From a virus: a DNA stretch of 20,511 bases. The stretch spans positions 1 through 20,511 of IMG/VR virus record IMGVR_UViG_3300044766_000017; one strand, given 5' to 3'. The notes beneath the pieces are model-generated. The model was not told the DNA's origin, did not search any database, and saw only the letters and a program-made list of their open reading frames with translations. A program made the position numbers and the translations under genes. Below, in pieces: positions 1,127 to 19,435 of the stretch (the first letter of the stretch is position 1; each line of letters opens with the position of its first letter).

Positions 1127-2536
1127 CTATCCGCTCACTTGGTAGGCGAACGCGTATGTGCCCACCTGAACGCTGCTATCGTCCGAGAACCAGTAGGCCC
1201 GGATGGTGGCCGCGTCGACGACGTAGCCCGTGAGGTTGATGAGTTGCATCTCAGCCTCGTCTCGAGCATCGCCCTTCGACGTGATCTTCGCGGCGGTTTG
1301 CACGATGCTGACAACCTTCTCGGCCGTGAGCCCCGCGAGCCCGGTGATGTCGAACGTGCCGGAGCGGCGTGCCGCCCCGAGGTCTTTGGTGAAATCGGTA
1401 TACGCCCCGCCGCCACCACCTCCACCCGCAGCACCCGTATCACCCTTGGCGCCAGGGGGCACGAAGGACTCGTCGGGAAGTTCATCCGGCCAGATGACGT
1501 ACCCGGCCGCGGAGCCTCCGCCGGAGCCCGGAGCGCCATCGGCGCCCTTCGCCCCGTCCTTGCCCGGAACCACGAAGAAGTCCGGTTCGATCACATCCGC
1601 TTCGAGAAAGACCGCGGGACCGATGGGACCAGCAACCGAGCTCGGGGGACCAGACGGCCCGGGCACGACGAAGAAATCGGGCTCGATGACATCGGCTTCG
1701 AGGTACACCGCAGGGCCGTTGGGTCCCATGGGTCCTGCGATGCCCACTCCGGCGAGCCCCTGCGGCCCCGGGATGATCCACGGTTCATCCGCAGCCTCGG
1801 CCTCAAGGTACGTGGCCGGCCCCTGTGTACCGACCCCCGCGGGACCCGTTGGACCGATCGCTCCGCCGGGACTCGCTACGCTCGCGCGAATCGAATACTG
1901 ATTCCCCGATGTCGTTGGTCCGTACCAGCCCCAGTCCGCGAACCAGTAGCTCCCCGGACTGTAGAACCTGTCGGACCCCGTGGCGTCGTACCGGATGCGG
2001 ATCGGGGTGCCGCCGGCGCCGTTGCTCCCAGCCTGTACGCAGATCCAGTAGTCCCCGGCGGTGAGCCAGGTGTTCATGGCGATCTGGAACCAGCGCGCCG
2101 TCGTGTTCCCGCCGGCGCCGCTGATGCTGTCGAGCAGGATGGCCGTGTCTCGGGGCTGAGACGCAGCCTGCACGCGATCGGGGGTCCCAGAAGCGTCGGT
2201 CATCACGGATGCGGCAAGACCGCCCACCGTGTCGTCGAGCGATCCGGCGTCGATGTAGGCGTCGATGCTTGTGAGCCAGCCGTCCGCCGGCATCGTGATC
2301 TTCTTGGCGTAGACGCGATACAGCGTCATGTTCTCGATGGAACCGCCGATGGTGTTGTAGCCGAGGAAGGAGTGCCCGACGCCGCCCTGTGAGCCGTCGA
2401 TCCCCTTCTGGCCGGGGATCACCCAGAGCTCATCACCAGCCCCCATAACCTCGTCGGGCCATACCATGACGCCGGCGGACGGGCCGATCGTCGAGGTCCC
2501 GGAGGCGGACCCGCCGGGTCGGGTGTCGTAACTCAT
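1127..2536 (-). CDS. Collagen-like phage fibre protein
   Basis: I start this 469-residue protein at the ATG at 2536 (MSYDTRPGG), because it overlaps the upstream stop as ATGA; the reading frame stays open 18 codons further upstream. An N-terminal non-collagen domain of about 200 residues, rich in aromatics (SYWFADWGWYG), is followed by interrupted Gly-X-Y stretches such as GPTGPAG, GPMGPNGPA, GPIGPA, GKDGAKGADGAPG and GAKGDTG. The C-terminal domain of about 90 residues contains DEAEMQLINLTGY and ends in YAFAYQVSG, a beta-rich cap of a kind I associate with collagen-like phage fibres. Between the Gly-X-Y blocks sits a repeated acidic-aromatic insert ending in PG (LEADVIEPDFFVVPG twice, with three looser copies). 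Collagen-like repeats trimerise in phage fibres, so a trimeric head or tail fibre that contacts the host is likely. Confidence 0.85.
   Translation of the reverse strand: MSYDTRPGGSASGTSTIGPSAGVMVWPDEVMGAGDELWVIPGQKGIDGSQGGVGHSFLGYNTIGGSIENMTLYRVYAKKITMPADGWLTSIDAYIDAGSLDDTVGGLAASVMTDASGTPDRVQAASQPRDTAILLDSISGAGGNTTARWFQIAMNTWLTAGDYWICVQAGSNGAGGTPIRIRYDATGSDRFYSPGSYWFADWGWYGPTTSGNQYSIRASVASPGGAIGPTGPAGVGTQGPATYLEAEAADEPWIIPGPQGLAGVGIAGPMGPNGPAVYLEADVIEPDFFVVPGPSGPPSSVAGPIGPAVFLEADVIEPDFFVVPGKDGAKGADGAPGSGGGSAAGYVIWPDELPDESFVPPGAKGDTGAAGGGGGGGAYTDFTKDLGAARRSGTFDITGLAGLTAEKVVSIVQTAAKITSKGDARDEAEMQLINLTGYVVDAATIRAYWFSDDSSVQVGTYAFAYQVSG
1564..1706 (-). repeat. Duplicated fibre module LEADVIEPDFFVVPG
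   Basis: Two copies of a roughly 45-base coding segment, at about 1564-1610 and 1659-1706, encode the same 15 residues of the fibre protein. The copies differ at several third-codon positions (for example tccggttcg versus tcgggctcg) while the peptide is unchanged. Looser relatives of the module flank them. The silent differences indicate an old duplication held constant at protein level rather than a fresh slippage event. Confidence 0.7.
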
Positions 2537-2817
2537 CGGCCGCTCATCGAGACAGTGATGCTGGCCCCGGAGACGAACTCCACGTACCACATCCCAGCAC
2601 CGGTAGCGTCACAGTTGAGGGGATGCTCGTACTCGTGGCCGACCGAGGAGAGGGGTTGGACGTGCAGGGGGACCACGATCTGCCCGGCGATGCCACCCTC
2701 ACGGATCCGCACGTATGCGACCTGCGCGGCGTCCGCGTTGTCGACGTGCCACGCCGACAGGAGCTTGAGGTTTCCGTCACCCGACGCGGTCAGGGTGATG
2801 TGGCGATCTGCGAGCAT
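2533..2817 (-). CDS. 94-residue virion protein, paralogue B
   Basis: A 94-residue beta-rich protein with ATG start and AGGGGA four bases upstream. It matches the neighbouring 2863-3147 product in length and layout: HI-x-x-TASG near the N terminus, then V-x-(I/L)REG-x-x-GG/AG-x-I, then a region ending in W-x-V-x-F-(V/T)-(S/T)G and a short final strand. The two are therefore tandem paralogues. Its stop overlaps the fibre gene start (ATGA at 2533-2536), which suggests coupled translation and related assembly. It is probably a small surface or fibre-base protein. I do not recognise a named family. Confidence 0.8.
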   Translation of the reverse strand: MLADRHITLTASGDGNLKLLSAWHVDNADAAQVAYVRIREGGIAGQIVVPLHVQPLSSVGHEYEHPLNCDATGAGMWYVEFVSGASITVSMSGR

Positions 2818-5174: not shown

Positions 5175-6032
5175 TTACGAGGCCGCGTTCTTCGAGAGGA
5201 CAGCAACGCCCCAGTTCTGGACCAGGATGCCCTGGCCGTAGACGGAGGTGATGTTGTACTCGGTGGCGCGCAGCGAGGCGTCACGCTGGGGCTCGACACG
5301 GATCGGGCGCTTGTCGACGCGGGCCAAAGCCTGCCCGCGCGAGAAGATCGCGCCCTTCACGTCCGCGGCGGCGTTGGCCGTCGGGATGTTCGTGGATCCG
5401 TACACGTCGACGCCGAAGTACGAGAACTCGTACCCGACTCCCGGCGCGAGGTCACCGTCCGTGCGGCTGGTCTGCACGACGGCCGTGGTCGTCGCCAGAG
5501 CCTTGCGGAAGTCGCCGATCGCGAAGGGGTGCAGCGCGAGGACGTACGGCTGCGGAGCGTCAAGACCGTGGAGGGTCGTGATCGCCTTCAGAACGTTCGC
5601 CTCGGACAACACAACGGTCGTGGTTCCCACGACGGTCGCGAAGGAGCCGCAAAGCGCAGCGAGGTCGGTGTCGCGCTTGTCCGCAACAGCCTTCCCGCCC
5701 TGCTCGGCGAAACGCATCCCGTCGGTCAGGATCGCTGACTCGATCAGGAGGTCGGTCACGTCGACGCGGATCGAGGCGGCCTCGGTCACGGCGATGTCGA
5801 CGTTCGTGGTGTCGACCGCGCTCGACGCCAGGTCAGCGGTCTCAGCGATGGACGCTGCCGTCAGCGCCGGCCACACCGGGAAGCTGAACGTGTTGGACGG
5901 CTTGCCTACCAGGGATTCCTGGCGGACGAGCTGGTCCATGACCGCGACACCGTACATGTTGTCGATCAGCATGTCGGTGAGGATCTTGGCGTAGATGAGC
6001 TCGGTCGCAGTTGCGGTCGTGGTAGCTGCCAC
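5175..6032 (-). CDS. Major capsid protein (HK97-fold)
   Basis: A 285-residue protein read from a GTG start with AGGACC upstream. It directly follows the scaffold gene, as coat genes do. The N-terminal arm (TELIYAKILTDMLIDNMYGVAVMDQLV) is followed by a strand-rich stretch (TFSFPVWPAL) and the spine-helix region (RFAEQGGKAVADKRDTDLAAL). The middle has LALHPFAIGDFRKAL, and a late part reads GAIFSRGQALARVDKRPIRVEPQRDASLRATEY, both familiar features of HK97-type coat subunits. Length is normal for this family. It would form the icosahedral head shell around the scaffold. No protease is fused or adjacent. The absence of an extended delta domain fits the presence of a separate scaffold protein. Confidence 0.9.
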   Translation of the reverse strand: MAATTTATATELIYAKILTDMLIDNMYGVAVMDQLVRQESLVGKPSNTFSFPVWPALTAASIAETADLASSAVDTTNVDIAVTEAASIRVDVTDLLIESAILTDGMRFAEQGGKAVADKRDTDLAALCGSFATVVGTTTVVLSEANVLKAITTLHGLDAPQPYVLALHPFAIGDFRKALATTTAVVQTSRTDGDLAPGVGYEFSYFGVDVYGSTNIPTANAAADVKGAIFSRGQALARVDKRPIRVEPQRDASLRATEYNITSVYGQGILVQNWGVAVLSKNAAS

Positions 6033-6061: not shown

Positions 6062-6610
6062 TCAGTCGGGGATCAGGTCCCCGTGCTTCAGGGTCAAGCG
6101 GCTGGGGTCGCGAGCGATCAGGTCGGCCATCTGCCGGAGCTCCGCCTCGGTGCCGGTTTTCGCGACACGGACGAAGTCCTCGGTTGAGAAGTCCTTCTGA
6201 CCACCCTTCAGGTTACCTCCAGCGATGGGCGCGGGCGGGGCCGTCGGCTTCTCGGGCGCGGTCCCGGGCATGAGGTCTTCGTGCTGGTTCTCGTCGCCCG
6301 TGTCCACCTTGTCGGTGACAAAGGCCGCCGCGAACGCTTCGATCGCCTCGACGCTCGGATCCGGCTGAAGAGCCGTCAGCGCCTCAAACTGCTTGTCCGT
6401 CAGACCCTTCTCCTTCGCCGTGGCGAGGGCGGTGGTCTGCCGATCCTTCAGCTCGAGGGCCGCGAGACGAGTCTCCGCCTCCGTCACCTTCGCTTCGGCC
6501 GCCTTGGCGCGGGCCTCGTTCTGCTCGCCCCAGGAACGCACCTTGCGGAGGTTCTCGGAGTACCGGGGGTCGTCTTCGTCCAACACTGGGTCATTCGTGG
6601 GGTCAGCCAC
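6062..6610 (-). CDS. Capsid scaffolding protein
   Basis: A 182-residue protein read from GTG with GAGGAGA immediately upstream. Residues 20-62 form a likely coiled coil (LRKVRSWGEQNEARAKAAEAKVTEAETRLAALE). They are followed by an acidic linker and a Pro/Ala-rich hinge (APEKPTAPPAPIAGG). A basic C-terminal helix-turn region (FVRVAKTGTEAELRQMADLIARDPSRL) is the usual coat-binding end of scaffolds. It is the first gene after the intrinsic terminator and hairpin at 6632-6817 and lies 29 bases before the coat gene. It would direct procapsid assembly and then leave the head. Composition, size and position all agree; scaffolds are too diverse for a confident family name. Confidence 0.85.
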   Translation of the reverse strand: MADPTNDPVLDEDDPRYSENLRKVRSWGEQNEARAKAAEAKVTEAETRLAALELKDRQTTALATAKEKGLTDKQFEALTALQPDPSVEAIEAFAAAFVTDKVDTGDENQHEDLMPGTAPEKPTAPPAPIAGGNLKGGQKDFSTEDFVRVAKTGTEAELRQMADLIARDPSRLTLKHGDLIPD

Positions 6611-6824: not shown

Positions 6825-8435
6825 CTACTGGACCTGGGCCTGATCCTGTTGCCCGCCGATCGAGGCGAAGCCGCCCTGGGAGACCTGCATCGGCGTGTGG
6901 CCGAACCGCTGAGCGAAGAACGCGGAGTGGGTGTCCATGACGCGCTGGAGCTTGTCGCTGGCCGCGCCGGCGCCCGGGCCACCGAACTCGGCAGCCAAGA
7001 GGTCCGATCGGGTTAGGCCGAAAGACCTAGCCTCCTGGGTTCCCATCTGGGTTCGGACCTTGTTCGCGAAGTCCGCGGTGCCCTTCACGATGTCGGACAG
7101 GTTCATGCCGGCCGTGAGGGACTGGATCTTGTTGATCCCCTTCTCACCGAGCGGGGCGCCCTCGGCCTTCGCCGTGGCCCCGATGTTCGCGCCCTCCCAC
7201 ACGTCCTTGAACGTGGAGTTGCTCATGCCCATGATGTGGTTCAGGAGCTCGGATCGAGTAGCTGGAGGCAGGCCGGCGTCGGCCAGTTGCCGCTGAAACT
7301 GCTCGAAGACGGCCTTGTTCTTGTCCAGGACGACCGTCGCGTTCGCTCGCGCGGCGAAGACCTCGGGGCGGACGTGACCGGCGAACAGATTGGCCTTCAG
7401 AGCGTCGGTCAGGTTGATCCCGTACCGGTCGGCGGTGGCCTGGTAGGACTTCATGTTCGCCTGGTACGCAGATTCGGACATGTTCGGCCCGATCCCCGGG
7501 AAGGCGGCCTGGTACTCGGCTGTCTGGCGAAGCGCCTGGAGGAAACGATCGGCGTTGTAGTTGCCGTTCGTGGCCTGGAGGATGAGAGCTTCGATCCCAG
7601 GCGTGTCCTGGATCCCCCAGCCCTGGAGCATGGAGCGGAAGGTGGCCTCCGTGTTGTGCCGATATTGGGGCTTCGAGGGGTTCCCGAGGGAGCCCGGAGT
7701 TGCCGTGGTCGACGCCGCGCCGGCCGCCATCGCGGCGGCGATGTCCGGATACTGCGTGGAAACCCCGGCGCTGGTCGTAACGGTGACCGTTCCGTCAGCG
7801 TTGGTCGTGAGGGTGCTTCCGTTCGCCAGCGTGATAGGGGGCAGGGTGGTGCTCGGGGGTGCGCCAGGCATGGTATTCGGCCCGGAGGAAGGGGGTTGCA
7901 CCGGCGTGGTTCCGTTGGCGGGGGGGGTGCCGGTGGAGGCCGCGTTGGCGATCTCCCGAACGGTAGTGAAGGTCCCATTCTGGATCGAAGCTGACACGGC
8001 CTGCAACTGCTCGGCAGTCAGGTCGTTCAGGTGGGTCTGAACACCCTGATCCGGTTGCCAGCCGTCGGGCTGGAGATGCAACTTGTTCGCGATGACCCCG
8101 GACAGTGCCTCAGCCGCCTTACCAGCCTTGCTTCCGATGAGTCCGTTGTCCCCCATGGAGGTGCCCGCATCCATGTTGGAGCCCATGATCATGCCGTGCG
8201 CGGTCTCATACGCAACGATGGCGGCGGCACGACTCGGGGAGACATCCGCCGGCACATAGACCGTGTGGCCGGCCGCCATGCCCCCCGTGTTTCCGCCAGG
8301 GAACTTCGCGTCGTACGCCGTGCGCGACAGCACGATCACCTGCATGTCGGTGGGAGTCGGCATCCCCAGGTATCCGGCGATGGTGTCCTCGTACTTCGCC
8401 TGGATCCTGTCTGCTTCCTGCTGAGTAAGGGTCAT
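6825..8435 (-). CDS. 536-residue virion-associated protein with zincin-like N-terminus
   Basis: The ATG overlaps the giant protein stop (ATGA at 8432-8435), so the two are likely made together. Residues 1-135 resemble a small zincin fold. They include HTVYVPADVSPSRAAAIVA, then Y76-E-T-A-H80, where a metalloprotease would have HExxH; here the first His is Tyr (codon TAT, one base from CAT), so it is probably inactive or a relic. Residues 165-205 are a Thr/Pro/Ser-rich linker. Residues 258-400 are helical (FRSMLQGWGIQDTPGIEAL, YQAAFPGI, ESAYQANMKSYQATADRYGI, FAARANATVV), a pattern I associate with large actinophage virion proteins, from memory only. The end is Gln/Gly-rich. Likely an internal head or ejection protein partnering the giant protein. 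Confidence 0.7.
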   Translation of the reverse strand: MTLTQQEADRIQAKYEDTIAGYLGMPTPTDMQVIVLSRTAYDAKFPGGNTGGMAAGHTVYVPADVSPSRAAAIVAYETAHGMIMGSNMDAGTSMGDNGLIGSKAGKAAEALSGVIANKLHLQPDGWQPDQGVQTHLNDLTAEQLQAVSASIQNGTFTTVREIANAASTGTPPANGTTPVQPPSSGPNTMPGAPPSTTLPPITLANGSTLTTNADGTVTVTTSAGVSTQYPDIAAAMAAGAASTTATPGSLGNPSKPQYRHNTEATFRSMLQGWGIQDTPGIEALILQATNGNYNADRFLQALRQTAEYQAAFPGIGPNMSESAYQANMKSYQATADRYGINLTDALKANLFAGHVRPEVFAARANATVVLDKNKAVFEQFQRQLADAGLPPATRSELLNHIMGMSNSTFKDVWEGANIGATAKAEGAPLGEKGINKIQSLTAGMNLSDIVKGTADFANKVRTQMGTQEARSFGLTRSDLLAAEFGGPGAGAASDKLQRVMDTHSAFFAQRFGHTPMQVSQGGFASIGGQQDQAQVQ

Positions 8436-11400
8436 GCCGCCACGCTCGCGATCAAGTCTCGATTGATGTTCGTGTCGTTCCAGTTGTTGAAGAAGAGCGC
8501 TTCGTACAGGGGCACGCCCTCACGCTGCGTGAGACCCTTGAGGGGCGAGGCGTACGAGAGGTTCGTCAGCTCATCAGCGAACGCCTTGTCGTAGTACGGC
8601 GAGTTCGGATCGCGGTACTGCTCGACGATCTGATAGAGCCACTGCTTGTACGCCAACGCCATACCGGTCGTTCCGGCGGGCGACAGCCCCGCGGCCGTCA
8701 GCGCGGCAGTGACCGTGGCGACCCCTTGGGAGACCTGCGTCCACGCCGCGTCCCCAGCGCCCACGCCCAGGTAGTTCAGGCGATCGAGCGGCGTGCCCTG
8801 CGCCAGTCTCACGAACTCGATACCATCGACGCCGTACTGCGCGCCCAGGGCTTGATATTGGAGCGTCTCCATCTGCTTCCAGGCATCAGCCTGCGTCGAG
8901 CCGGCCACCACTCCGGCCAGCTCCTCATCCGTGCGGAAGGTGAGCTGAAGCGCGTTCATCTTGTCGGCGAGCTCCGTCCGCCCGTCGAACTTCTTGAAGC
9001 CGGCGGTGTCGAGCTGGAAAGGCGTCAGCCAGTTGAGCGGCTTCGATGCCCAGTTTTCCCGCGCGTAGAGCTGCCCCTGCGCGTTCTTGTTGCCGTAGAA
9101 GACTTCCTCCGGCGTGGGGAGTGTGATCGTCTTCCCCTTGTACGTGTAGGACCGGTCCATCGAGTCATACCGCGCGTTGACAGCCGAGAGCTGGGCGTAG
9201 AGCGCAGTCGTATCCTCACCGCGGATGTTGGCCGCGTCGATCTGGTCCCAGATCGGTTTCGTCTCATCCTGATACGGCGTCATCACGTCTTGGTAGAAGT
9301 GCGCGATCCCGGCCTCGAGAGGCGTGACATTGATGTTCGGGTTCTTGCTCTCCTCGTCCTGGATGATCTGAGAAGTGATCTCCGCGAGCTTGCCCTTGAT
9401 CGCCTGGTACTCACTCGAGGTGACGCCACCCTCGCCGGTGAAGGCCGGCGCCAACATCTCGAGGTTGTGCAACGTGCTCGTCACGCGATCGGCCTCGATG
9501 TTGAGACCTTGTCCGTAGCCAAGCTCGGCGTACCGACGTTGCTTGTCGGCGAGATCCTGAACCACTCCCGGAGTAAGTTGCTGGTAGGTACGCCACTCGT
9601 CGGAGGTCCGCTGACGGATCGGCGAGACCTCGCCACCGTGCGTCAGGATCGTCGTGAGATCGAGCGCGGGGCTGATGGTGCGGAGCTGCTTGTCCAACTG
9701 AGCCTGGTAGTACGCATGGCTCGTGCTCGTCTGCACCAGACGCACATACTCGTCGGGCGACATCTGGTGGCGGGCACCCTCGAGAAACTGCGTCGTGAAG
9801 TCGCCATTGGGATCGTTGAGGAGCTGCTGCTTCTCCCCCGTCGCGTAGCTCGTGAAGTACGAGTAGGACAGAGACTCAGGGTGATTGGCCACGTACTGGT
9901 GCATGATCGCGAGTTGCGCGTCGGTAACGCTTCCGTCCTCCGAAGTGAAGACATTCTGGTTCAGGAAGTCGTAGAAGGACTGACGCTCCTTCGTGGTGAT
10001 CGACACGTTGCCCGGTGTGAACGTAGCCGAAGCGAAGTGAACGAAAGCGTTCGCCCGCGCGATGTGCTCAGCGTCGTTCATGAGTCCTACCGTGAACGCT
10101 TTGATCGCGGCGAGGTACTTGTCCTGATCGACGACCGGCAAGCCCGTGTTGGGGTCGACCTTGTCGGTGTAAAACTGCTCCGGCCGTGGCGGCAACCGCC
10201 CCTTGTCGAGATAGTCGCGCTGGAAAGCAACCTGGACAGCCTGATCGAACGAACGGTCCCACGCGAGTTTCTGGTACTGCGGCGAGAGGAACTCCCACGG
10301 CACGGGATGGCCGGTGAGCCCCTCGATCAGGTAGTTGACGTTCGACGGCACCGACACGGTGGGGATGTCCATCGGCGCCAGCTTGTCGGCGAGGAAGCCC
10401 AAGATGCCCGAGTTCTTCTGGATGATCGCGTGGATCGCGAGCGCCGGCACGGTCGACACTGTCGGCCACGGTGTCGCCCAGTGGGGCTGGATGCTCATCG
10501 CGTTGCGGAAGGCGATCTCGGGGTGATGGCTGAGCACGGTACTGAACAGGCTCATGAGTGGATCAGGGATGATCCATTGACCCTGACTGTCCTTCTTCAC
10601 GATGCCGAGATCGGAGAAGAGCTTGAGGTAGTTCGCGGCCTTCATGGCGAGCAGCGGGATCCCCAGCGCCCCGTACTGCGAGGGGATCTTCGTCAGCCAC
10701 GCCGACAGGATCGACTGCGACACCGGCTCGAACCAGAACACGTCGCGCGTGGCCTGTTGGAACGTCGACCGCGCGCCGAGATGGTAGAGCAACCCTCGTA
10801 CCTGCCGCGCAGCGTAGAGTTCGGCAAATGCGCGAGCCTCAACCTCAGCCATGCCGCTGTCCTTGAAGCCTTGGTACGCACGCTCGGCGGCCTGACGGAA
10901 CATGCTCCCGCGGGCGCCCATGAGGTCGATGGAACTCGCGACCCGGAAGGGTCGATACGTCATGTTGGTGATCCCGGCGCGGATGTTGTCGAGCGTCTCG
11001 CCCGGGTTGTCTCCACCGTACCTTCCCTGCTTCTTGTAGATTTCGTTCGGAAACTCCCAGGTACCGGCCTCCCATTTGTCGCGCAGGGTCTTGGCGAGCT
11101 CCGCGTTCTTACCAGGCTTGCGGCCCAGACGAGCGACCTGCTCTTGGATCGCCGCGGCAGCATCCTCGCCGAGATTCGCGCGCTCGGCCGCGAGCTGTGA
11201 GATGGTCGACTTGCGCGCGTCCTGGAGAGCGCGGAAGGTGGCGAAGTCATCGGCCGTGGCGCCTGAACCATTGACCGTGTTGGCAAGTTCAGATAGGCGC
11301 GCATCTTCGGCGAACAACTCCACCTGGAGTTCACCGAAGCGCGAAGCCGTCGCGGCGTCCGCGTTGCCGATGATCCCGTGGAACTTGCCCGTGGCAACGA

Positions 11401-14400
11401 TCTGAAGGAGCTCGGGGTCCACACCGGAGGCGACCTGAACAGCTCCCGCCGGACCAGCTCCCGCAGCGCCCACTTCCCCGCCCAGCGCAGCCTGGCCTTC
11501 AACGGCGCCACCAGAGCGGTACGCTCGGTAGCCACCGGTGACGGAACGGATCTGCTCGACCTGACGCTCGAGGAATGCGCGAAGCTGCTCGTCGAAGGGC
11601 AGATTGAGCGTGCGATAGTCGCGCGCGATGAGTTCGTGAAGCTGGTTGTCGATCAGATCCGTCAGCTCGCTCGAGTTCTCTATCGCGGACAGCGTGGCGT
11701 CCACGTCCAGATTATGCTGCGCCAACGTGCGCGTGATCGGTCCCCTGTTGAGGCGCTGAAGCTTGTCCGCCACCGCGGCGAAGTCCTCCGTCCTCGGAGC
11801 CCGACTACGAAGCTGGATGTCCGAGGTCGGAGTCGGCACGAACGGGCGCGAAGGCGTCGGCTCGAGGATGTCCTGCGACAGCACACCGAGCGGCTGCGAA
11901 CGGACATCCCAGTTGCCGTAAACCGACGGCGAGACAAGCTGAACGCGACCATCGCCGGCCGGCCCCATCTCCTTGAACTTGTCGAGCATCATGTCCATCG
12001 AGGGGTGCATGTCGAGATATTCACGCCCCAGGGCGCCCTCGAGGAAGGTCTGGATCTTGCCAGCGTCCATGAACATGCCGTCGGGGAACCAGACGACGCC
12101 CTTGTACCCAGAAGCCTTCGCTCTCATCGCGTGCTCGATGAACGTGCGTTCGATCATCGCCGGCATGTGGAACAACAGCGTCGGACCCTTCCAGATGGTC
12201 GTCGCCAGCTTCATGATGAACTTGGGCGTAGAGACCAATGCGTCGGCCGGCCCGTAGATCGCCTTCTGCGCGAACTTACTCGAGTACCGACCCTCAACGT
12301 AGCGCTGAACCTCGGCGAGCTTCCGACTGCGCCACTGCATCGCTTCCCTGAACTTCGCCGTGTCGGGCAGGAAGGCGTGGTTGGCGAACTCCGTGGCGTC
12401 GGCCGGCATCGGCACCGGGTTGCCGTTCAGGTCCAGCTCGGCGAGCACGTACTCAGAACTCGGGATCGTCACGCCGTCGGCGCCCGTGGTGGTCGAGTCG
12501 AAACGCGAAGTGGTGCGCTGGTCGATCGGCTTGTCGTGGATCTGCGTCAGTTGCCGGCGGATCTCCGGCGGCGTATCGGCCGGGAGATGACGGTCGATCG
12601 TCTTCGCGATGTCCTCACGGAGATGGAAGAACTCCTGGTCGTTTGCGATGCGCTCCATTCGACCGATGAGTTCATTGACCGTCGCATCGGGGACGCCCAG
12701 GCGATGAAGTTCATTCGTGATCGTGACAGCGTTCTGCGCGGCCCAGTCTCGAGGCGCGTCGGGCATCCCCGGATTCCACAGCGGGACGTTCCCACCGGGA
12801 AGTTCGTCACCGAAGTCGCGCAGGTCCATGTGCCCCAGGTCACGCAGCGGCTTCACGAACACATTGGAGATGAACCGCTCGAGCCCCGACATCGGGTTGT
12901 GCACAGCGGCGCGCAGCGTCGAGAGCTTCGGATACTTCAGCACCGGGGGGTTGACGTTCGAGGCGTACTCCATCTCGTTGCGGAGCGCGAGCGCTTTCGC
13001 GCGCACCTCGGCGAGCCCCTGAGGATCGACGACAGTCTCATCGGGGTACTTCCACTCGTACGACGGAGGGGCGGCAGCGCTGGCCTCGGCAGACACCTGT
13101 TCCATCGGCGACATACCGGGAGTAGCTTCAGGGATCGCCGCCTCGATCTTCGTGGCCTTGCCATCGCGTACCGCTTTCTCCCAGAGGGCGCGCGCGGCAT
13201 CACTGAGCTCAGAGCTGCTGAGGAAACGCGCCTCCGGACCCTGACTACGGATCCACTGTGCGACTGCCTCATACAGCTTCATGCCGAGCCCCTGGCCCTG
13301 AAGCGCCTCGGGGACCTGGCTTCGCGTGAGGAAGTAGTCGTTGCCCCCGTTCGGGATCTGCTCCACGGCGGCGTGCTCGCCCTGGGTTCCCTCGATGTAT
13401 GCAGCCCGGCCGCCGCCCGGAGCAACACCACTGTCGTCCACGGTGAATCCGTCGAGCGCCTTGGTCGTGGTGACGTTGTCGGCAGCGGCCTCCATGGTGC
13501 GGGCCTGCTCATCGAGACGGGAGAGCTCTTGCAGCCTGCCCACGATCTGATCCGCGGTGAGGCGCACCTTACCCTCGAGGTAGTCGGTGGCGGCCTGCGC
13601 CATGCCGAGTCGCGGCGCATCGTTCACTGCGCGGAAGAACTCCGGCGGGTAGCCGACGCCGTATGTGCGCGCCATGTCTCCGACGACGTAGTCGTTGAGC
13701 GCCTCGCCCTCGAGTCCGGTGGCCGCCCCGGCGTCTCGAGAGAGCTGGATGCGATCGAAGAGTGAGTTGCCGATGTCGCCGGCCATGACATCCGCGATGG
13801 GCTTCGAGGTGAGCTCGAACGCCTTCGTGCGGAGCCAGTAGTCGAACGCCTTCAGCGGGTGGAGTGCGGGATCGTCGAGGATACGCCCATCGAAGAAGCC
13901 CGGATGCGTGTCGGCGAAGGAGGTATTGATCCCGAGCTCCGCGCGGCCCGTCATCGGCAGGTACTCGCGGCCGACCTTCGCCGCCTTGAAGAACTCACCG
14001 GTCTTGTCGGTAAGCCAGATGACCCCGATGTCGGTCGTCAGCCCGACGATGTCGTTGTAGTCCTGGGAGTTCTTATCCATGCCGAAGCCCTGAAGGACTC
14101 GGCCCAACGACTGATCGACCGTGAAATGAACACCGGTCTGGATGCCGTTGAAGATGTGCTCGATCCCTCCCACGATCGCGGAGATGGTGGTTGGAACGAC
14201 GGAGGCGAGTTTCTCCGCGCCCCCTCCGCCCTGAAGGAACTTCGCAGCTCCCTGGTTGCCAGTCTTGATGAACTCGAGCCCAGCTCCGACCGGCTTCATG
14301 ATCGTTTCGAGACCGGTCTTCGCATAGCTGATCTCATCCATCAGCACGCGCCCGGGACCGCCAACGCGAATCGCGTCAAGAGCGCCGAGTCCGTTGATCC

Positions 14401-15112
14401 CGACTGGCACCCCCGTCAGGGTTTGAAGCGCATGAGCGATAGGGATCGCAGCGTCGACGTTCGACAGGACCCACTGGTGAGAGGCGTTGGGGTCTTCCAC
14501 CTGGACGCCCGCGGGCATCATCAGATCGAGGATGTAACGCATGGAGACCGACCCAGAGGGATCCGCGACCTGCGTATCCGGACCCGCTTGCGCCATCTGC
14601 GTCAACTGGCTCATCACCATCTGCTGGGAGGCCACGTCGAGCTGCTGGACGCGCTCGAGCAACTTCAGTGCGTCGGTGTTGTGGGTCGCCAGTGCGTAGG
14701 AACGCGCCGCAGTCAACGTGCCGGGGACCCCGGCGAGATGGTCGCGCTCCTCGAGCCAGGGAAGCACCTTGTTCATGTACTGCGCGTGGAGCTTGAGCTG
14801 TTCGTCGGGCATGTTTCCGGCGATCATCCGAGCGATCGCCCAGGGCATGTACTTGAACGTCTCGGGGGCGAAGTACCCCGCGCGCCGGGCGACGACCTTG
14901 GGGTATGCGGCGCTCGCCTTCGCCAGTGGACCGACGACGTAGGGGTTCTTCCCGCCCGACATCTGGAGCGACGGCTCGAGCGGAGGAGCGATGCCGATCG
15001 TGGTGGGCGCGGTGGGGCGCGATCCGAAGCGCGGCGACGCAACAACGGGAGCAGCCCCGGTGTCCGAGGCCGCGTTGGGAGAGGGTTCTACGTTCGGATC
15101 TTCAGCAAGCAC
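8432..15112 (-). CDS. Giant polyvalent-type virion protein with GNAT domain
   Basis: A 2226-residue protein from GTG with AGGGG upstream. The N terminus is disordered (Pro/Ala/Ser), followed by helical segments and a Gly-rich, mildly hydrophobic stretch near residues 290-325. Residues about 552-665 look like a GNAT acetyltransferase: strands, then Q605-G-Q-G-L-G610 (the Q-x-x-G-x-G acetyl-CoA loop) with KLYEAVAQWIRSQG, and a late SSSELSDAARALWEKA helix. Around W974 (TIWKGPTLLFHMPAMIERTF) and W1460 (RDVFWFEPVSQSILSAWL) lie aromatic motifs recalling very large actinophage virion proteins. The C-terminal 700 residues are mostly helical. It sits between portal and scaffold, the usual place of MuF or polyvalent minor head proteins, so packaging in the head and injection with DNA is a fair inference. 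No polymerase or lytic motif was found. Confidence 0.8.
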   Translation of the reverse strand: MLAEDPNVEPSPNAASDTGAAPVVASPRFGSRPTAPTTIGIAPPLEPSLQMSGGKNPYVVGPLAKASAAYPKVVARRAGYFAPETFKYMPWAIARMIAGNMPDEQLKLHAQYMNKVLPWLEERDHLAGVPGTLTAARSYALATHNTDALKLLERVQQLDVASQQMVMSQLTQMAQAGPDTQVADPSGSVSMRYILDLMMPAGVQVEDPNASHQWVLSNVDAAIPIAHALQTLTGVPVGINGLGALDAIRVGGPGRVLMDEISYAKTGLETIMKPVGAGLEFIKTGNQGAAKFLQGGGGAEKLASVVPTTISAIVGGIEHIFNGIQTGVHFTVDQSLGRVLQGFGMDKNSQDYNDIVGLTTDIGVIWLTDKTGEFFKAAKVGREYLPMTGRAELGINTSFADTHPGFFDGRILDDPALHPLKAFDYWLRTKAFELTSKPIADVMAGDIGNSLFDRIQLSRDAGAATGLEGEALNDYVVGDMARTYGVGYPPEFFRAVNDAPRLGMAQAATDYLEGKVRLTADQIVGRLQELSRLDEQARTMEAAADNVTTTKALDGFTVDDSGVAPGGGRAAYIEGTQGEHAAVEQIPNGGNDYFLTRSQVPEALQGQGLGMKLYEAVAQWIRSQGPEARFLSSSELSDAARALWEKAVRDGKATKIEAAIPEATPGMSPMEQVSAEASAAAPPSYEWKYPDETVVDPQGLAEVRAKALALRNEMEYASNVNPPVLKYPKLSTLRAAVHNPMSGLERFISNVFVKPLRDLGHMDLRDFGDELPGGNVPLWNPGMPDAPRDWAAQNAVTITNELHRLGVPDATVNELIGRMERIANDQEFFHLREDIAKTIDRHLPADTPPEIRRQLTQIHDKPIDQRTTSRFDSTTTGADGVTIPSSEYVLAELDLNGNPVPMPADATEFANHAFLPDTAKFREAMQWRSRKLAEVQRYVEGRYSSKFAQKAIYGPADALVSTPKFIMKLATTIWKGPTLLFHMPAMIERTFIEHAMRAKASGYKGVVWFPDGMFMDAGKIQTFLEGALGREYLDMHPSMDMMLDKFKEMGPAGDGRVQLVSPSVYGNWDVRSQPLGVLSQDILEPTPSRPFVPTPTSDIQLRSRAPRTEDFAAVADKLQRLNRGPITRTLAQHNLDVDATLSAIENSSELTDLIDNQLHELIARDYRTLNLPFDEQLRAFLERQVEQIRSVTGGYRAYRSGGAVEGQAALGGEVGAAGAGPAGAVQVASGVDPELLQIVATGKFHGIIGNADAATASRFGELQVELFAEDARLSELANTVNGSGATADDFATFRALQDARKSTISQLAAERANLGEDAAAAIQEQVARLGRKPGKNAELAKTLRDKWEAGTWEFPNEIYKKQGRYGGDNPGETLDNIRAGITNMTYRPFRVASSIDLMGARGSMFRQAAERAYQGFKDSGMAEVEARAFAELYAARQVRGLLYHLGARSTFQQATRDVFWFEPVSQSILSAWLTKIPSQYGALGIPLLAMKAANYLKLFSDLGIVKKDSQGQWIIPDPLMSLFSTVLSHHPEIAFRNAMSIQPHWATPWPTVSTVPALAIHAIIQKNSGILGFLADKLAPMDIPTVSVPSNVNYLIEGLTGHPVPWEFLSPQYQKLAWDRSFDQAVQVAFQRDYLDKGRLPPRPEQFYTDKVDPNTGLPVVDQDKYLAAIKAFTVGLMNDAEHIARANAFVHFASATFTPGNVSITTKERQSFYDFLNQNVFTSEDGSVTDAQLAIMHQYVANHPESLSYSYFTSYATGEKQQLLNDPNGDFTTQFLEGARHQMSPDEYVRLVQTSTSHAYYQAQLDKQLRTISPALDLTTILTHGGEVSPIRQRTSDEWRTYQQLTPGVVQDLADKQRRYAELGYGQGLNIEADRVTSTLHNLEMLAPAFTGEGGVTSSEYQAIKGKLAEITSQIIQDEESKNPNINVTPLEAGIAHFYQDVMTPYQDETKPIWDQIDAANIRGEDTTALYAQLSAVNARYDSMDRSYTYKGKTITLPTPEEVFYGNKNAQGQLYARENWASKPLNWLTPFQLDTAGFKKFDGRTELADKMNALQLTFRTDEELAGVVAGSTQADAWKQMETLQYQALGAQYGVDGIEFVRLAQGTPLDRLNYLGVGAGDAAWTQVSQGVATVTAALTAAGLSPAGTTGMALAYKQWLYQIVEQYRDPNSPYYDKAFADELTNLSYASPLKGLTQREGVPLYEALFFNNWNDTNINRDLIASVAA

Positions 15113-15748: not shown

Positions 15749-17614
15749 TTAGCCGGCCCCGACCATCGACTCGATGGACGGGAGCGGTCGTGCTTGACTG
15801 GGTTGAGGCAGTGCCGCGGATCGCACCGGTGCCTCGGGGGAAGCAGGCGGCGTGTTCATGCCGATCGGAGACTCTGCGGCCACGCCGGGAGCAGATGGGC
15901 TGGTACCACCACCGCCCCCGGCCGCAGCCTGTTGGGCTGCGAGCTGTTGGGCTTGCTGATCCTCGGCGGCGCTCGCCAGTACGGCGGCGGCGTCGAGCGG
16001 ATCCATGCCCGTGACGAGGAGCTGGGCGAAGTGCATGATCATCGCCATGCCGGTGTTCGGGTCGGTGAGGAGGCGTTGAAGCAGCGCGTCCTCGGTCTTC
16101 TCTCGGGCGATCTGTTGCGATTCGCCGGCCTCATCCATCAGGTACTCGGTCTGCTCGCGCGCGGTCTTCTTCGACGCGATCCCGAGGTTCACGTCGTTCG
16201 CCAGCGCGGCCTTCTTGTTCAGCGCATCGAGGCCAGCCCCGGCGCCGTAGATGACCATGTTGTCGTAGTTGTCGATGTCCTTCTGCGGGTTGTAGTCAGA
16301 GAACTCCCCCGACGGGATCGCCAGGGACTTCGAGCCCTGCGTGCAGAAGGTCTTGTCGACCTCGAGAGCGAGCCGGTTCCTGCGCTGCCAGAGCCGGCCG
16401 ACTTCCTTCTGGCCGCTCTTGATCATCGTGGTCAAGTTGCCCATCGTCGAGTTGACGAAGGACGCCGATGCGATCGACTGCCCGATCTCACCCTGTCGCG
16501 ACTCCGGGTAGTTCGCACCCGCGCGCGCCTGGGACTCGAGGTATTCGAGGACGTGGAAGACCTCGGGATTCGCACCACCGTTCGGCACGCGAATCATCCG
16601 GCCGTCCTTCGTCCGCGCATGGAAGACGGTCTTCGGGCCGGGCGGGTCGTTCGGGTTGTCGATGTCGTACTCGACGAACGGCGCGTACACGATCTGCTCG
16701 GCGCCGGTGATGATGAGGTTCAGGATCCGGTTCTGCGTGAGGGTTGCGCCCTTGAGCTGGTCGAAGAACCCGCGGAACGCACCGTCGGCCGTCTTCAGCC
16801 GCGCCCACGCCACGCAGGGCTTCCCCATGTCGTGCTGCCACGTTGAGATCAAGGAGGCCGGGGAGTCCTTCGTGGCCTTCGCCTTCTTCTTCGCCGCCAC
16901 GGTGTTCGAGTTGCCCGACGCAGAGAGAAGGACGATGACGCGGCTGTACGAACTCGCGTCGTAGTAGTCGATGACTTCGACTTCGGTCGCCTTGCCGAGC
17001 TCGCCGCCCTCGAAGTAGTCGGTCAGGTCGATGTCGAACGCCGGGGAGACCAGCTCCTTCTCCATGCGCTGGACGACGATCAGGTCCACGAGCTTGTTGT
17101 TGACGAACCGCGGGAACGCACCCCGGGGGTCGATGCGGGTGAAGATGGGGTAGTTGTCCTCACCCTCGTCCGGCTCGTCGTACGTGATGGCCTCGAGGGC
17201 GATGCCGGTCTGCGCGAGGTCGAGCGCGATCCAGTGGTTCTCTTCCTCGAGGTCGTTCACTGCGGCGTAGGTCTGGAGGATGGCCTCCTTCTTGTACGCC
17301 CGCTTCTGCTTCGAGCCCTTGTCTCCGCGCGAGGCGCAGCGGATCTGCGGCTGGACCTCCATGACGAGGCGGCCGAAGTCGTCGGTCGCCGTCTGCGTCA
17401 GGTTCATGACGATGGGTTTAGCCTGCTCCACCGTTCCATCGGGCCATTCGATCGTCCAGTCGCCGCGGTACATGCGATCGTTGACCTCGATCTGATCCTT
17501 CCAGTCGGAGAAGTACAGGTCGACGCCGCGGCCCAGCCGGTTGACGAGCACCTGCTTGGCAAACTGCCGGCGCTCGAGTTCCGCCTGGATCTGACGTGCA
17601 GTGGCGTTAGCCAA
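15749..17614 (-). CDS. Portal protein
   Basis: A 621-residue protein read from TTG (17614), with TTAGGAAT seven bases upstream; no ATG is nearby in frame. Position right after terL, size, and layout fit a portal. The N-terminal helical part includes YFSDWKDQIEVNDRMYRGDW and AKPIVMNLTQTATDDFGRLVMEVQPQIRC. The middle is mixed alpha/beta (FTRIDPRGAFPRFVNN, TEVEVIDYYDASSYSRVIVL), and a long helical stem region follows (GEIGQSIASASFVNSTMGNLTTMIKSGQKEVGRLWQRRNR). The last 100 residues are Gln/Ala/Gly and Pro-rich and probably disordered, as in P22-like portals. It would form the dodecameric DNA channel at one head vertex and dock the terminase motor encoded just upstream. Confidence 0.88.
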   Translation of the reverse strand: MANATARQIQAELERRQFAKQVLVNRLGRGVDLYFSDWKDQIEVNDRMYRGDWTIEWPDGTVEQAKPIVMNLTQTATDDFGRLVMEVQPQIRCASRGDKGSKQKRAYKKEAILQTYAAVNDLEEENHWIALDLAQTGIALEAITYDEPDEGEDNYPIFTRIDPRGAFPRFVNNKLVDLIVVQRMEKELVSPAFDIDLTDYFEGGELGKATEVEVIDYYDASSYSRVIVLLSASGNSNTVAAKKKAKATKDSPASLISTWQHDMGKPCVAWARLKTADGAFRGFFDQLKGATLTQNRILNLIITGAEQIVYAPFVEYDIDNPNDPPGPKTVFHARTKDGRMIRVPNGGANPEVFHVLEYLESQARAGANYPESRQGEIGQSIASASFVNSTMGNLTTMIKSGQKEVGRLWQRRNRLALEVDKTFCTQGSKSLAIPSGEFSDYNPQKDIDNYDNMVIYGAGAGLDALNKKAALANDVNLGIASKKTAREQTEYLMDEAGESQQIAREKTEDALLQRLLTDPNTGMAMIMHFAQLLVTGMDPLDAAAVLASAAEDQQAQQLAAQQAAAGGGGGTSPSAPGVAAESPIGMNTPPASPEAPVRSAALPQPSQARPLPSIESMVGAG

Positions 17615-17623
17615 TGAAGATTC

Positions 17624-19435
17624 CTAACGTGAGAAAGCGGCCCAGCCCTGGTTGTGCGCGCCCTTGGTGAAGCCGGGACCGTAGCGCGCGCCCTCGGGCA
17701 TCGGAGATGGGGGCGTCAACTGGGCGAGGTTGAAGGCGATGAACCAAAGCGCCATGAGAAGGTCGTTGTACGGGCCATAGGGGTAGGTCGTGGCCTCGTC
17801 GATGAGGACTCGTGACATCTCCCGCCCGCGGTGGTCTGCCCACGGCAGCCGAACCCGGCCGTACTCGAAGGCGACAGCAAGGGACTGGATCCCATAGACC
17901 TCGTCCGTCTTGTTGATGCCAGTGGTGTGAGACATGATCCGGACGTTGTGCCGGTTCTTCCACTGGAGAAACTGGGAGTCCTGGAGGAACCACCGCTGCG
18001 CGGCGTTCTTCTCGAAGATCAGGTAGCTCGGGTGGTACTCCTCCGTCACCCGTTCGATCTGACGCAGCATCTCGCGCACATCCATGCGCGCGCGCGTGGC
18101 TTCCAGTATACCACACTTGAACACTTCGCGCGAGACCATGAGGTCCGCGACTATCAAACCGGCTTGCCGCTCGGGGCTCGGGTCCATGGACACGACACGG
18201 ACCCACTGCTCATCCGTCTGGAAGACCTCGTTGGTGGCCGGGTCGACCTCGCCCTTCTTCTTCACCCGCATGGGGGTGCCGGCGCGGCGCGTCTTGTCGA
18301 GGCAACCCTCGTGATCGGCGTCTCCGTAGATCCACTCGTCCAGCACCAGCCGGTCCTCCGGCGGGATCGGGTTCTGCTGATACATGGACTCCCAGAGCCA
18401 GGAGTTGTGCTTGCGCTTCAGGTCCTCGTAGGTCTCCATCAGGCGCTCGAACGGCCACTCCTGGGGCCAGAGCACCGTCTGGGCCTCCCAATCGAGGATC
18501 GCCGGGTAGTTGATGTGCTCCCAGAGGGGCTGGTTCATGAGCGGCCCGCGGGTGTAGGTCTTCTCCGCGAGCTCGCCATAGAGGTCCAGGTAGTGGATCC
18601 GCTGCCCGATGACGATTACCTTCGAGACCGGGGAGCGCCGGGACATCACGTCGCCTGACCAGTACTCCGACAGCTTGTCGCGGGCGTCCTGGGTGTAGGC
18701 GGACTCGCGATCGACCACGTCGTCGCCGATGATGAGGTCCGCCTCCATGCCGAGGATCTGCTGGCCGGCGCCGCGGATCTGGAGGGTGAGGTCCCCCGAC
18801 TCCCGTTGGCGGTCTCGGCCTTCGACCATGAGCTCCCCGGAGCGGGGGCGCCACGGGGCGTCGTCTCCCATGGGCTTGAACCGGCCGAAGTCCTGGATCA
18901 GCCTCTTGTTGTACTCGAGGTGCCAGGCGATCTTCTCCGAGAACTTCCGGGCCATGTTCACTGTCTGGGAGATGATGAGGATCTGGATGTTGCGGTCTAG
19001 GGCGATCCGCCAGACGGAGTACCAGACGCTCAGGATCTCGGACTTGGCGTGGCGCGGGGGGACGTTCAGGAGCAGGCGGTCGTGGATCAGGATCGCCTTG
19101 ATCCACTCTTTCGCATGTTGCGGAAGGTACTTCTCTCCGGAATAGCGGAGGAAGAACGCCTCGAACCCGGCCACGGACTGCTCGAGGCACAGGAGCACCT
19201 CTGGGTCCTCGGAGCCGTTGAGCTCCTGGAACGAACGGGGGTCCGGGGCAACCGCACCGACGCGGCCGGCGGCCCGGACCCTGAAGACCGTCCGCTTGGA
19301 GATCCCTAGCTTCCGCGCGATGGCTTCGGCTGAGAGACCCGGGTAGGGCTTGACCGAGAGGGCGAGCACCTGGGAGGCGAGCGCCTCGGAGACGACATGG
19401 ATCCGCTCCTGGTACCCGGCCTTCTTGTTGCTCAA
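17624..19435 (-). CDS. terL: Terminase large subunit with N-terminal HTH
   Basis: A 603-residue protein read from TTG (19435) with AGGGGA four bases upstream; no in-frame ATG is close. The ATPase has a Walker A at V125-PPRHAKSE (an A for G variant of the common PPRHGKSE), Walker B at 233-239 (DLIIGDD) and the coupling motif GQRIHYLDL at about 277. The C-terminal RNase H-like nuclease shows S-M-D418, E475 in YLIFEKNAAQ and D558 in YNDLLMAL, the expected acidic triad. Residues about 34-60 (LSAEAIARKLGISKRTVFRVR) form a helix-turn-helix, unusual for TerL and typical of small terminase subunits. No separate terS is seen in the window. It powers DNA packaging into the head and cuts the concatemer. 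It is the first gene of the leftward late operon. Confidence 0.93.
   Translation of the reverse strand: MSNKKAGYQERIHVVSEALASQVLALSVKPYPGLSAEAIARKLGISKRTVFRVRAAGRVGAVAPDPRSFQELNGSEDPEVLLCLEQSVAGFEAFFLRYSGEKYLPQHAKEWIKAILIHDRLLLNVPPRHAKSEILSVWYSVWRIALDRNIQILIISQTVNMARKFSEKIAWHLEYNKRLIQDFGRFKPMGDDAPWRPRSGELMVEGRDRQRESGDLTLQIRGAGQQILGMEADLIIGDDVVDRESAYTQDARDKLSEYWSGDVMSRRSPVSKVIVIGQRIHYLDLYGELAEKTYTRGPLMNQPLWEHINYPAILDWEAQTVLWPQEWPFERLMETYEDLKRKHNSWLWESMYQQNPIPPEDRLVLDEWIYGDADHEGCLDKTRRAGTPMRVKKKGEVDPATNEVFQTDEQWVRVVSMDPSPERQAGLIVADLMVSREVFKCGILEATRARMDVREMLRQIERVTEEYHPSYLIFEKNAAQRWFLQDSQFLQWKNRHNVRIMSHTTGINKTDEVYGIQSLAVAFEYGRVRLPWADHRGREMSRVLIDEATTYPYGPYNDLLMALWFIAFNLAQLTPPSPMPEGARYGPGFTKGAHNQGWAAFSR

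Follow-up and report, generated by a model that had tools for sequence, protein, structure and literature searches.

The closest described counterparts of the protein considered here are polyvalent proteins, injected proteins of phages and conjugative elements among which Iyer et al. (2017) distinguished two families of GNAT acetyltransferase domains (PMC5512222). One of these families was found in gammaproteobacterial (pro)phages and in an uncultured Mediterranean phage, the phage GNAT family typically has an ART neighbour within the same polypeptide, and both families are assigned to a larger RimI-like clade and presumed to modify proteins (PMC5512222). A further point of comparison is T7 gp16, which is ejected and has been modelled crossing the inner membrane (PMC8954989).

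The window, an IMG/VR virus record analysed over its full length of 20,511 bases, encodes a giant protein of 2226 residues that resembles the polyvalent GNAT proteins of Iyer et al. in three respects: the GNAT lies inside a very large protein, this protein is encoded among head genes, and it is thought to be injected. Unlike their phage GNAT proteins, the window giant has no second enzymatic domain, such as an ART, that we could find. Large size, late-gene location and presumed co-ejection with the DNA are also features that it shares with N4 virion RNA polymerase and T7 gp16. No sequence relationship to either was detected, and no polymerase or transglycosylase domain was found. Homology to T7 gp16 in particular received no backing from PHROGs, where the acetyltransferase was the sole match, or from tblastn against 50,697 phage records, which returned none. 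By analogy, the window protein may work like the polyvalent GNAT proteins.

The late genes around the giant all lie on the minus strand, in the order TerL, portal, 123-aa ORF, giant, 536-aa ORF, 182-aa ORF and MCP:

17624..19435, minus strand: terminase large subunit, TerL (phrog_38, E 2.8e-69)
15749..17614, minus strand: portal protein (PF05133, 34.4 bits; 40% identity to the portal of the related phage L003)
15120..15491, minus strand: 123-aa ORF between portal and giant, with no family match
8432..15112, minus strand: giant protein P0001, 2226 aa, delimited by its ORF, its codon-position GC and its slot between portal and MCP
6825..8435, minus strand: 536-aa protein directly downstream of the giant, overlapping the giant's stop
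6062..6610, minus strand: 182-aa ORF in the scaffold position, so named by position alone, with no profile match
5175..6032, minus strand: major capsid protein, MCP (phrog_544, E 1.6e-14; 69% identity to the L003 MCP)

The giant begins with GTG and runs through 2226 codons without a stop, occupying 32.6% of the window. In codon-position GC (0.64/0.44/0.83) it agrees with the co-oriented genes for TerL, portal and capsid, and the long ORFs opposite it on the plus strand show the mirrored pattern; because of this match with the late genes, we regard the giant's frame as real and the opposing ORFs as its shadows. The first-pass annotation, made from the sequence alone, is thus upheld in describing 8432-15112 as a 2226-residue protein filling a third of the window, and both the Q605-GQGLG-610 loop and the SSSELSDAARALWEKA stretch occur exactly as it quoted them. 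Its placement of the gene in a head-gene slot between portal and scaffold likewise agrees with the PF05133 match of the portal and the phrog_544 match of the MCP, the scaffold ORF being assigned by position only. Its further description of this place as a MuF slot is not supported: no Phage_Mu_F profile matched the giant at E values up to 1 or its neighbours at E values up to 0.01, and we rejected a MuF identity for the giant.

As expected of a polyvalent protein, the giant is encoded among late head genes, and from this gene position we infer that it is a virion protein. A simple hydropathy scan detected no 19-residue segment of it above a Kyte-Doolittle value of 1.6, which would mark a membrane helix. 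Searches of Pfam, PHROGs and NCBIfam revealed no enzymatic domain besides the GNAT, with the proviso that profiles can miss domains in an orphan protein. Two other ORFs in the window deserve mention. The C-terminal part of the 536-aa protein is conserved at the same place in the L003 phage (tblastn E 9.5e-21), and in its N-terminal part, inspected by eye, YETAHG takes the place of a zincin's HExxH; the ORF has no Pfam match and is possibly a degenerate metallopeptidase. A 487-aa ORF (1127-2590, minus strand) without a family match contains collagen-like Gly-Pro-rich repeats (GPTGPAG, GPMGPNG) and, judging by these, is probably a fibre protein.

Within the giant, the following features define the putative acetyltransferase:

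13118..13459, minus strand: GNAT domain, residues 552-665 (PF00583, phage GNAT profile, Foldseek/VIA)
13283..13300, minus strand: acetyl-CoA motif A loop, Q605-G-Q-G-L-G610, read from the sequence and aligning with R/Q-G-K/Q-G-x-G of relatives

The GNAT superfamily carries the acetyl-CoA signature Q/R-x-x-G-x-G/A, which is present in the giant as this loop. Searched as a whole, the giant matched PF14542 (E 6.8e-5, 23.4 bits) and PF00583 (E 0.0053, 17.5 bits) below their curated cut-offs. The excised domain scored 22.8 bits against PF00583, exceeding the cut-off of 20.7, and 29.0 bits against PF14542, compared with a cut-off of 30. Subthreshold scores for the entire protein would be compatible with a chance resemblance within a long sequence of low identity, an explanation that becomes highly improbable in view of two independent lines of evidence. 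When eight other phage GNATs were made into a profile that excluded the window sequence, the window domain scored 30.8 bits against it, and the highest score among 1000 shuffled versions of that stretch was 5.8. Moreover, in Foldseek/VIA comparisons the 50 best PDB matches of both predicted structures were all acetyltransferases.

These structures were two AlphaFold2 models. Model 1, built on an alignment of 6 rows, was weak (pLDDT 52) and matched the same fold family; model 2, built on 9 sequences, reached a mean pLDDT of 71.5 and a pTM of 0.63 and recovered the GNAT strand order together with the motif-A helix, with pLDDT declining at its C-terminal end. The elements expected of the GNAT core (strands 2-4, the motif A helix, strand 5 and the last helix) are accordingly taken as present. 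The closest folds were those of the minimal GNATs YjdJ (5i0c; Foldseek E 9.7e-4; VIA Z 9.4, rmsd 2.2, 84 aligned) and At1g77540 (2il4; VIA Z 9.9, rmsd 2.4, 85 aligned). As these are the best structure matches, the window domain appears closest to minimal GNATs of about 90 residues; YjdJ and At1g77540 are free-standing cellular proteins, whereas the window GNAT is embedded in a giant. The GNAT-like core that had been proposed at about residues 552-665 is therefore confirmed by the PF00583 match of the domain alone, by the independent phage profile and by acetyltransferase matches to a predicted GNAT fold. On profile and model evidence together, residues 552-665 are a genuine GNAT domain.

Scans with the GNAT alignment revealed the same domain type in other giant proteins, namely IMG/VR viral ORFs of 1591, 1860, 2267+ and 2779 aa, and also in two shorter ORFs of 248 and 817 aa; the same GNAT type is embedded in the 2748-aa giant of Lbo-JY46. 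The 2779-aa ORF (L033:2160-10496) combines radical SAM, DUF3293 and DUF7178 domains with the GNAT motif in one polypeptide. In the 2267+ aa ORF (L024:1-6801) the GNAT is accompanied by an HSP90/GHKL-like ATPase match just below the cut-off and by a WLM zincin match below the cut-off.

Further relatives come from phages of Klebsiella, Shigella and Escherichia (KpV48, myPSH1235, SFN6B, ZH5), in which a GNAT of the same small kind, with the R/Q-G-K/Q-G-x-G loop and a Trp-bearing last helix, is likewise carried in a giant virion protein. In Klebsiella phage KpV48 it lies in a 1420-aa internal virion protein (PF00583, 30.4 bits) of the T7 gp16 class. This carrier is a gp16 homologue, whereas the window giant is unrelated to it in sequence. 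The KpV48-type GNAT is a clean 188-residue insert (L021:3035-7297 compared with L028 and L029): exactly those 188 residues are missing from the proteins of phages RCIP0037 and ZX6, which elsewhere are 97.6% and 89.4% identical, respectively. Close copies of the insert occur in seven records. The KpV48 protein matches 314 records in which one place covers at least 80% of it, and among the matches listed the GNAT-less records appear at 86% coverage in two pieces. Nei-Gojobori estimates of dN/dS for the KpV48-type GNAT (0.08-0.12) are similar to those for the rest of the protein, and this purifying selection indicates that the inserted sequence is kept as working protein. A clean insert under purifying selection in a gp16-like virion protein fits well with interpretation of the domain as virion-borne cargo. 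A literature search for GNATs in internal virion proteins returned no paper that matched every term.

Whether the window GNAT is active is a separate matter. In GNATs, a Tyr of the last helix often serves as general acid, and an acidic base is also usual. The window domain has Trp in place of this Tyr (A-L-W-E-K), a replacement shared by most relatives. It also has Ser where most relatives, after strand 5, carry the Asp of an S-D motif; activity is consequently not assured. A catalytically dead domain, serving as a structural or CoA/ligand-binding module, for example in head assembly or as a host-protein anchor, would account for both substitutions and for the declining pLDDT towards the C-terminus of the modelled domain. 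We nevertheless consider it unlikely, since the acetyl-CoA loop is intact, the related virion GNATs share the Trp under purifying selection, and several known GNATs work without using the last-helix Tyr.

Searches with the giant itself, by whole-protein tblastn against the phage records and by a pattern scan of viral contigs, found no relatives; these came to light by way of TerL, portal and GNAT alignments. TerL relatives with 37-49% identity in the best segment led to contigs that have another giant after the portal, and no prophage relatives of the window TerL were present among the genome contigs searched. In HTVC112P and DSL-LC06, the nearest phages by MCP, the slot is occupied by small proteins only. 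One of the slot giants, that of contig L014, is homologous to the window giant on both sides of the GNAT:

14609..14899, minus strand: N-terminal backbone, residues 72-168, homologous to the L014 giant (BLASTP E 3e-7)
12323..13015, minus strand: post-GNAT backbone, residues 700-930, homologous to the L014 giant and collinear (BLASTP E 3e-4)

A GNAT profile search detected no GNAT in the L014 giant, which has a different stretch at the collinear position. Homology on both flanks of a GNAT-less position shows that the domain has been exchanged here. The domain replacing it (L014:6281-6655; EAHHRIGVAAEAGQSVPVEV, with an EAHHR stretch) resembles ParB/sulfiredoxin-like cores by eye; the ParB-like reading was set aside, as it rested on the EAHHR motif and searches of Pfam and the PDB gave no match.

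Other occupants of the slot differ further. Truncated where its contig ends, the L010 giant includes ART-PolyVal (PF18760, 36.3 bits, compared with a cut-off of 31.2). This domain was defined on the basis of polyvalent proteins that are injected, and its presence lends support to the earlier suggestion that this slot is used for effector-type giants. At 3705 aa, the slot ORF of L003 (L006:5822-16939, on a 43.5-kb contig) carries a zincin-like motif, HEMGH, and matches DUF7178 below threshold; a GNAT suspected in it by eye was withdrawn, because its score of 6.8 bits is within the shuffle range and below the Pfam cut-offs. One region of this giant is shared with a slot protein of 1635-1646 aa that the Streptomyces phages Dennebes and Manuel encode (phrog_10618, E 1.8e-12). 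The phrog_10618 giant of these Beephvirinae thus occupies the same gene slot as the window giant and is homologous to its L003 counterpart, whereas its similarity to the window giant is not significant, so that homology between the two was not accepted; profile searches found neither a GNAT nor any other enzymatic domain in it. Phages related to that of the window retain a giant in this position and vary its enzymatic content.

These counterparts also bear on a second function that the giant might have. Being encoded among assembly genes, and having same-slot counterparts in Dennebes and Manuel that yielded no enzymatic domain, it might be a non-ejected scaffold/assembly or tail-joining protein, with a GNAT that modifies proteins of the phage while virions are being assembled inside the infected cell. 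Against this, the slot giant of L010 has an ART-PolyVal domain, of a kind typically seen in injected proteins, and the same GNAT type occurs in a gp16-class ejection protein; we judge such a role to be distinctly improbable.

The computed GNAT fold, acetyl-CoA loop, gene slot and domain replacement point instead to an ejected protein with an enzymatic cargo, which we hold to be the rather more probable account. Expressed late, the giant would be packaged into the head close to the portal. It would exit together with the DNA, carrying the compact GNAT (residues 552-665) as a cargo module. Once in the cytoplasm, which supplies acetyl-CoA, the GNAT would then transfer acetyl to an amine on a target in the host, most probably a protein, ahead of phage gene expression.

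How far the giant deserves the name polyvalent, which the first-pass annotation had given to its slot, depends on how strictly the term is used. Its late head-gene location and the ART-PolyVal domain of its L010 counterpart favour the name, and its single enzymatic domain leaves strict polyvalent status unproven; some of the other GNAT-bearing giants, judged by their profile matches, are polyvalent. The same annotation had presented an injected acetyltransferase as a new example of a virion-borne effector. Here it overstated the case: the class has already been described (Iyer et al. 2017; PMC5512222), and the record of SFN6B already carries an N-acyltransferase note on its internal core protein. 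By analogy with these proteins, the window giant probably adds an example to a described class of multi-part injected virus proteins, with the GNAT as cargo into the host.

A broader interpretation, which we offer tentatively and regard as somewhat doubtful, is that one ejected giant backbone acts as a plug-in carrier. Different warheads (the GNAT of the window, the ART of L010, the zincin-like motif of L003 and another domain in L014) would be swapped at the portal-capsid position, and host-specific modifications, for example protein acetylation, would be delivered pre-emptively, ahead of any phage gene expression. Virion-borne modification of the host has a precedent in ADP-ribosylation by T4 Alt.

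For the specialist, the most useful outcome is the evidence of cargo exchange, seen in homologous giants with and without the GNAT and in GNAT-plus/GNAT-minus pairs of KpV48-type phages. The latter offer a natural pair for experiment: closely related phages whose internal virion protein, of the ejected gp16 class, has the GNAT insert in one case and lacks it in the other. If the proposed role is correct, virion-delivered protein acetylation would join the small set of virion-borne host modifications exemplified by T4 Alt.
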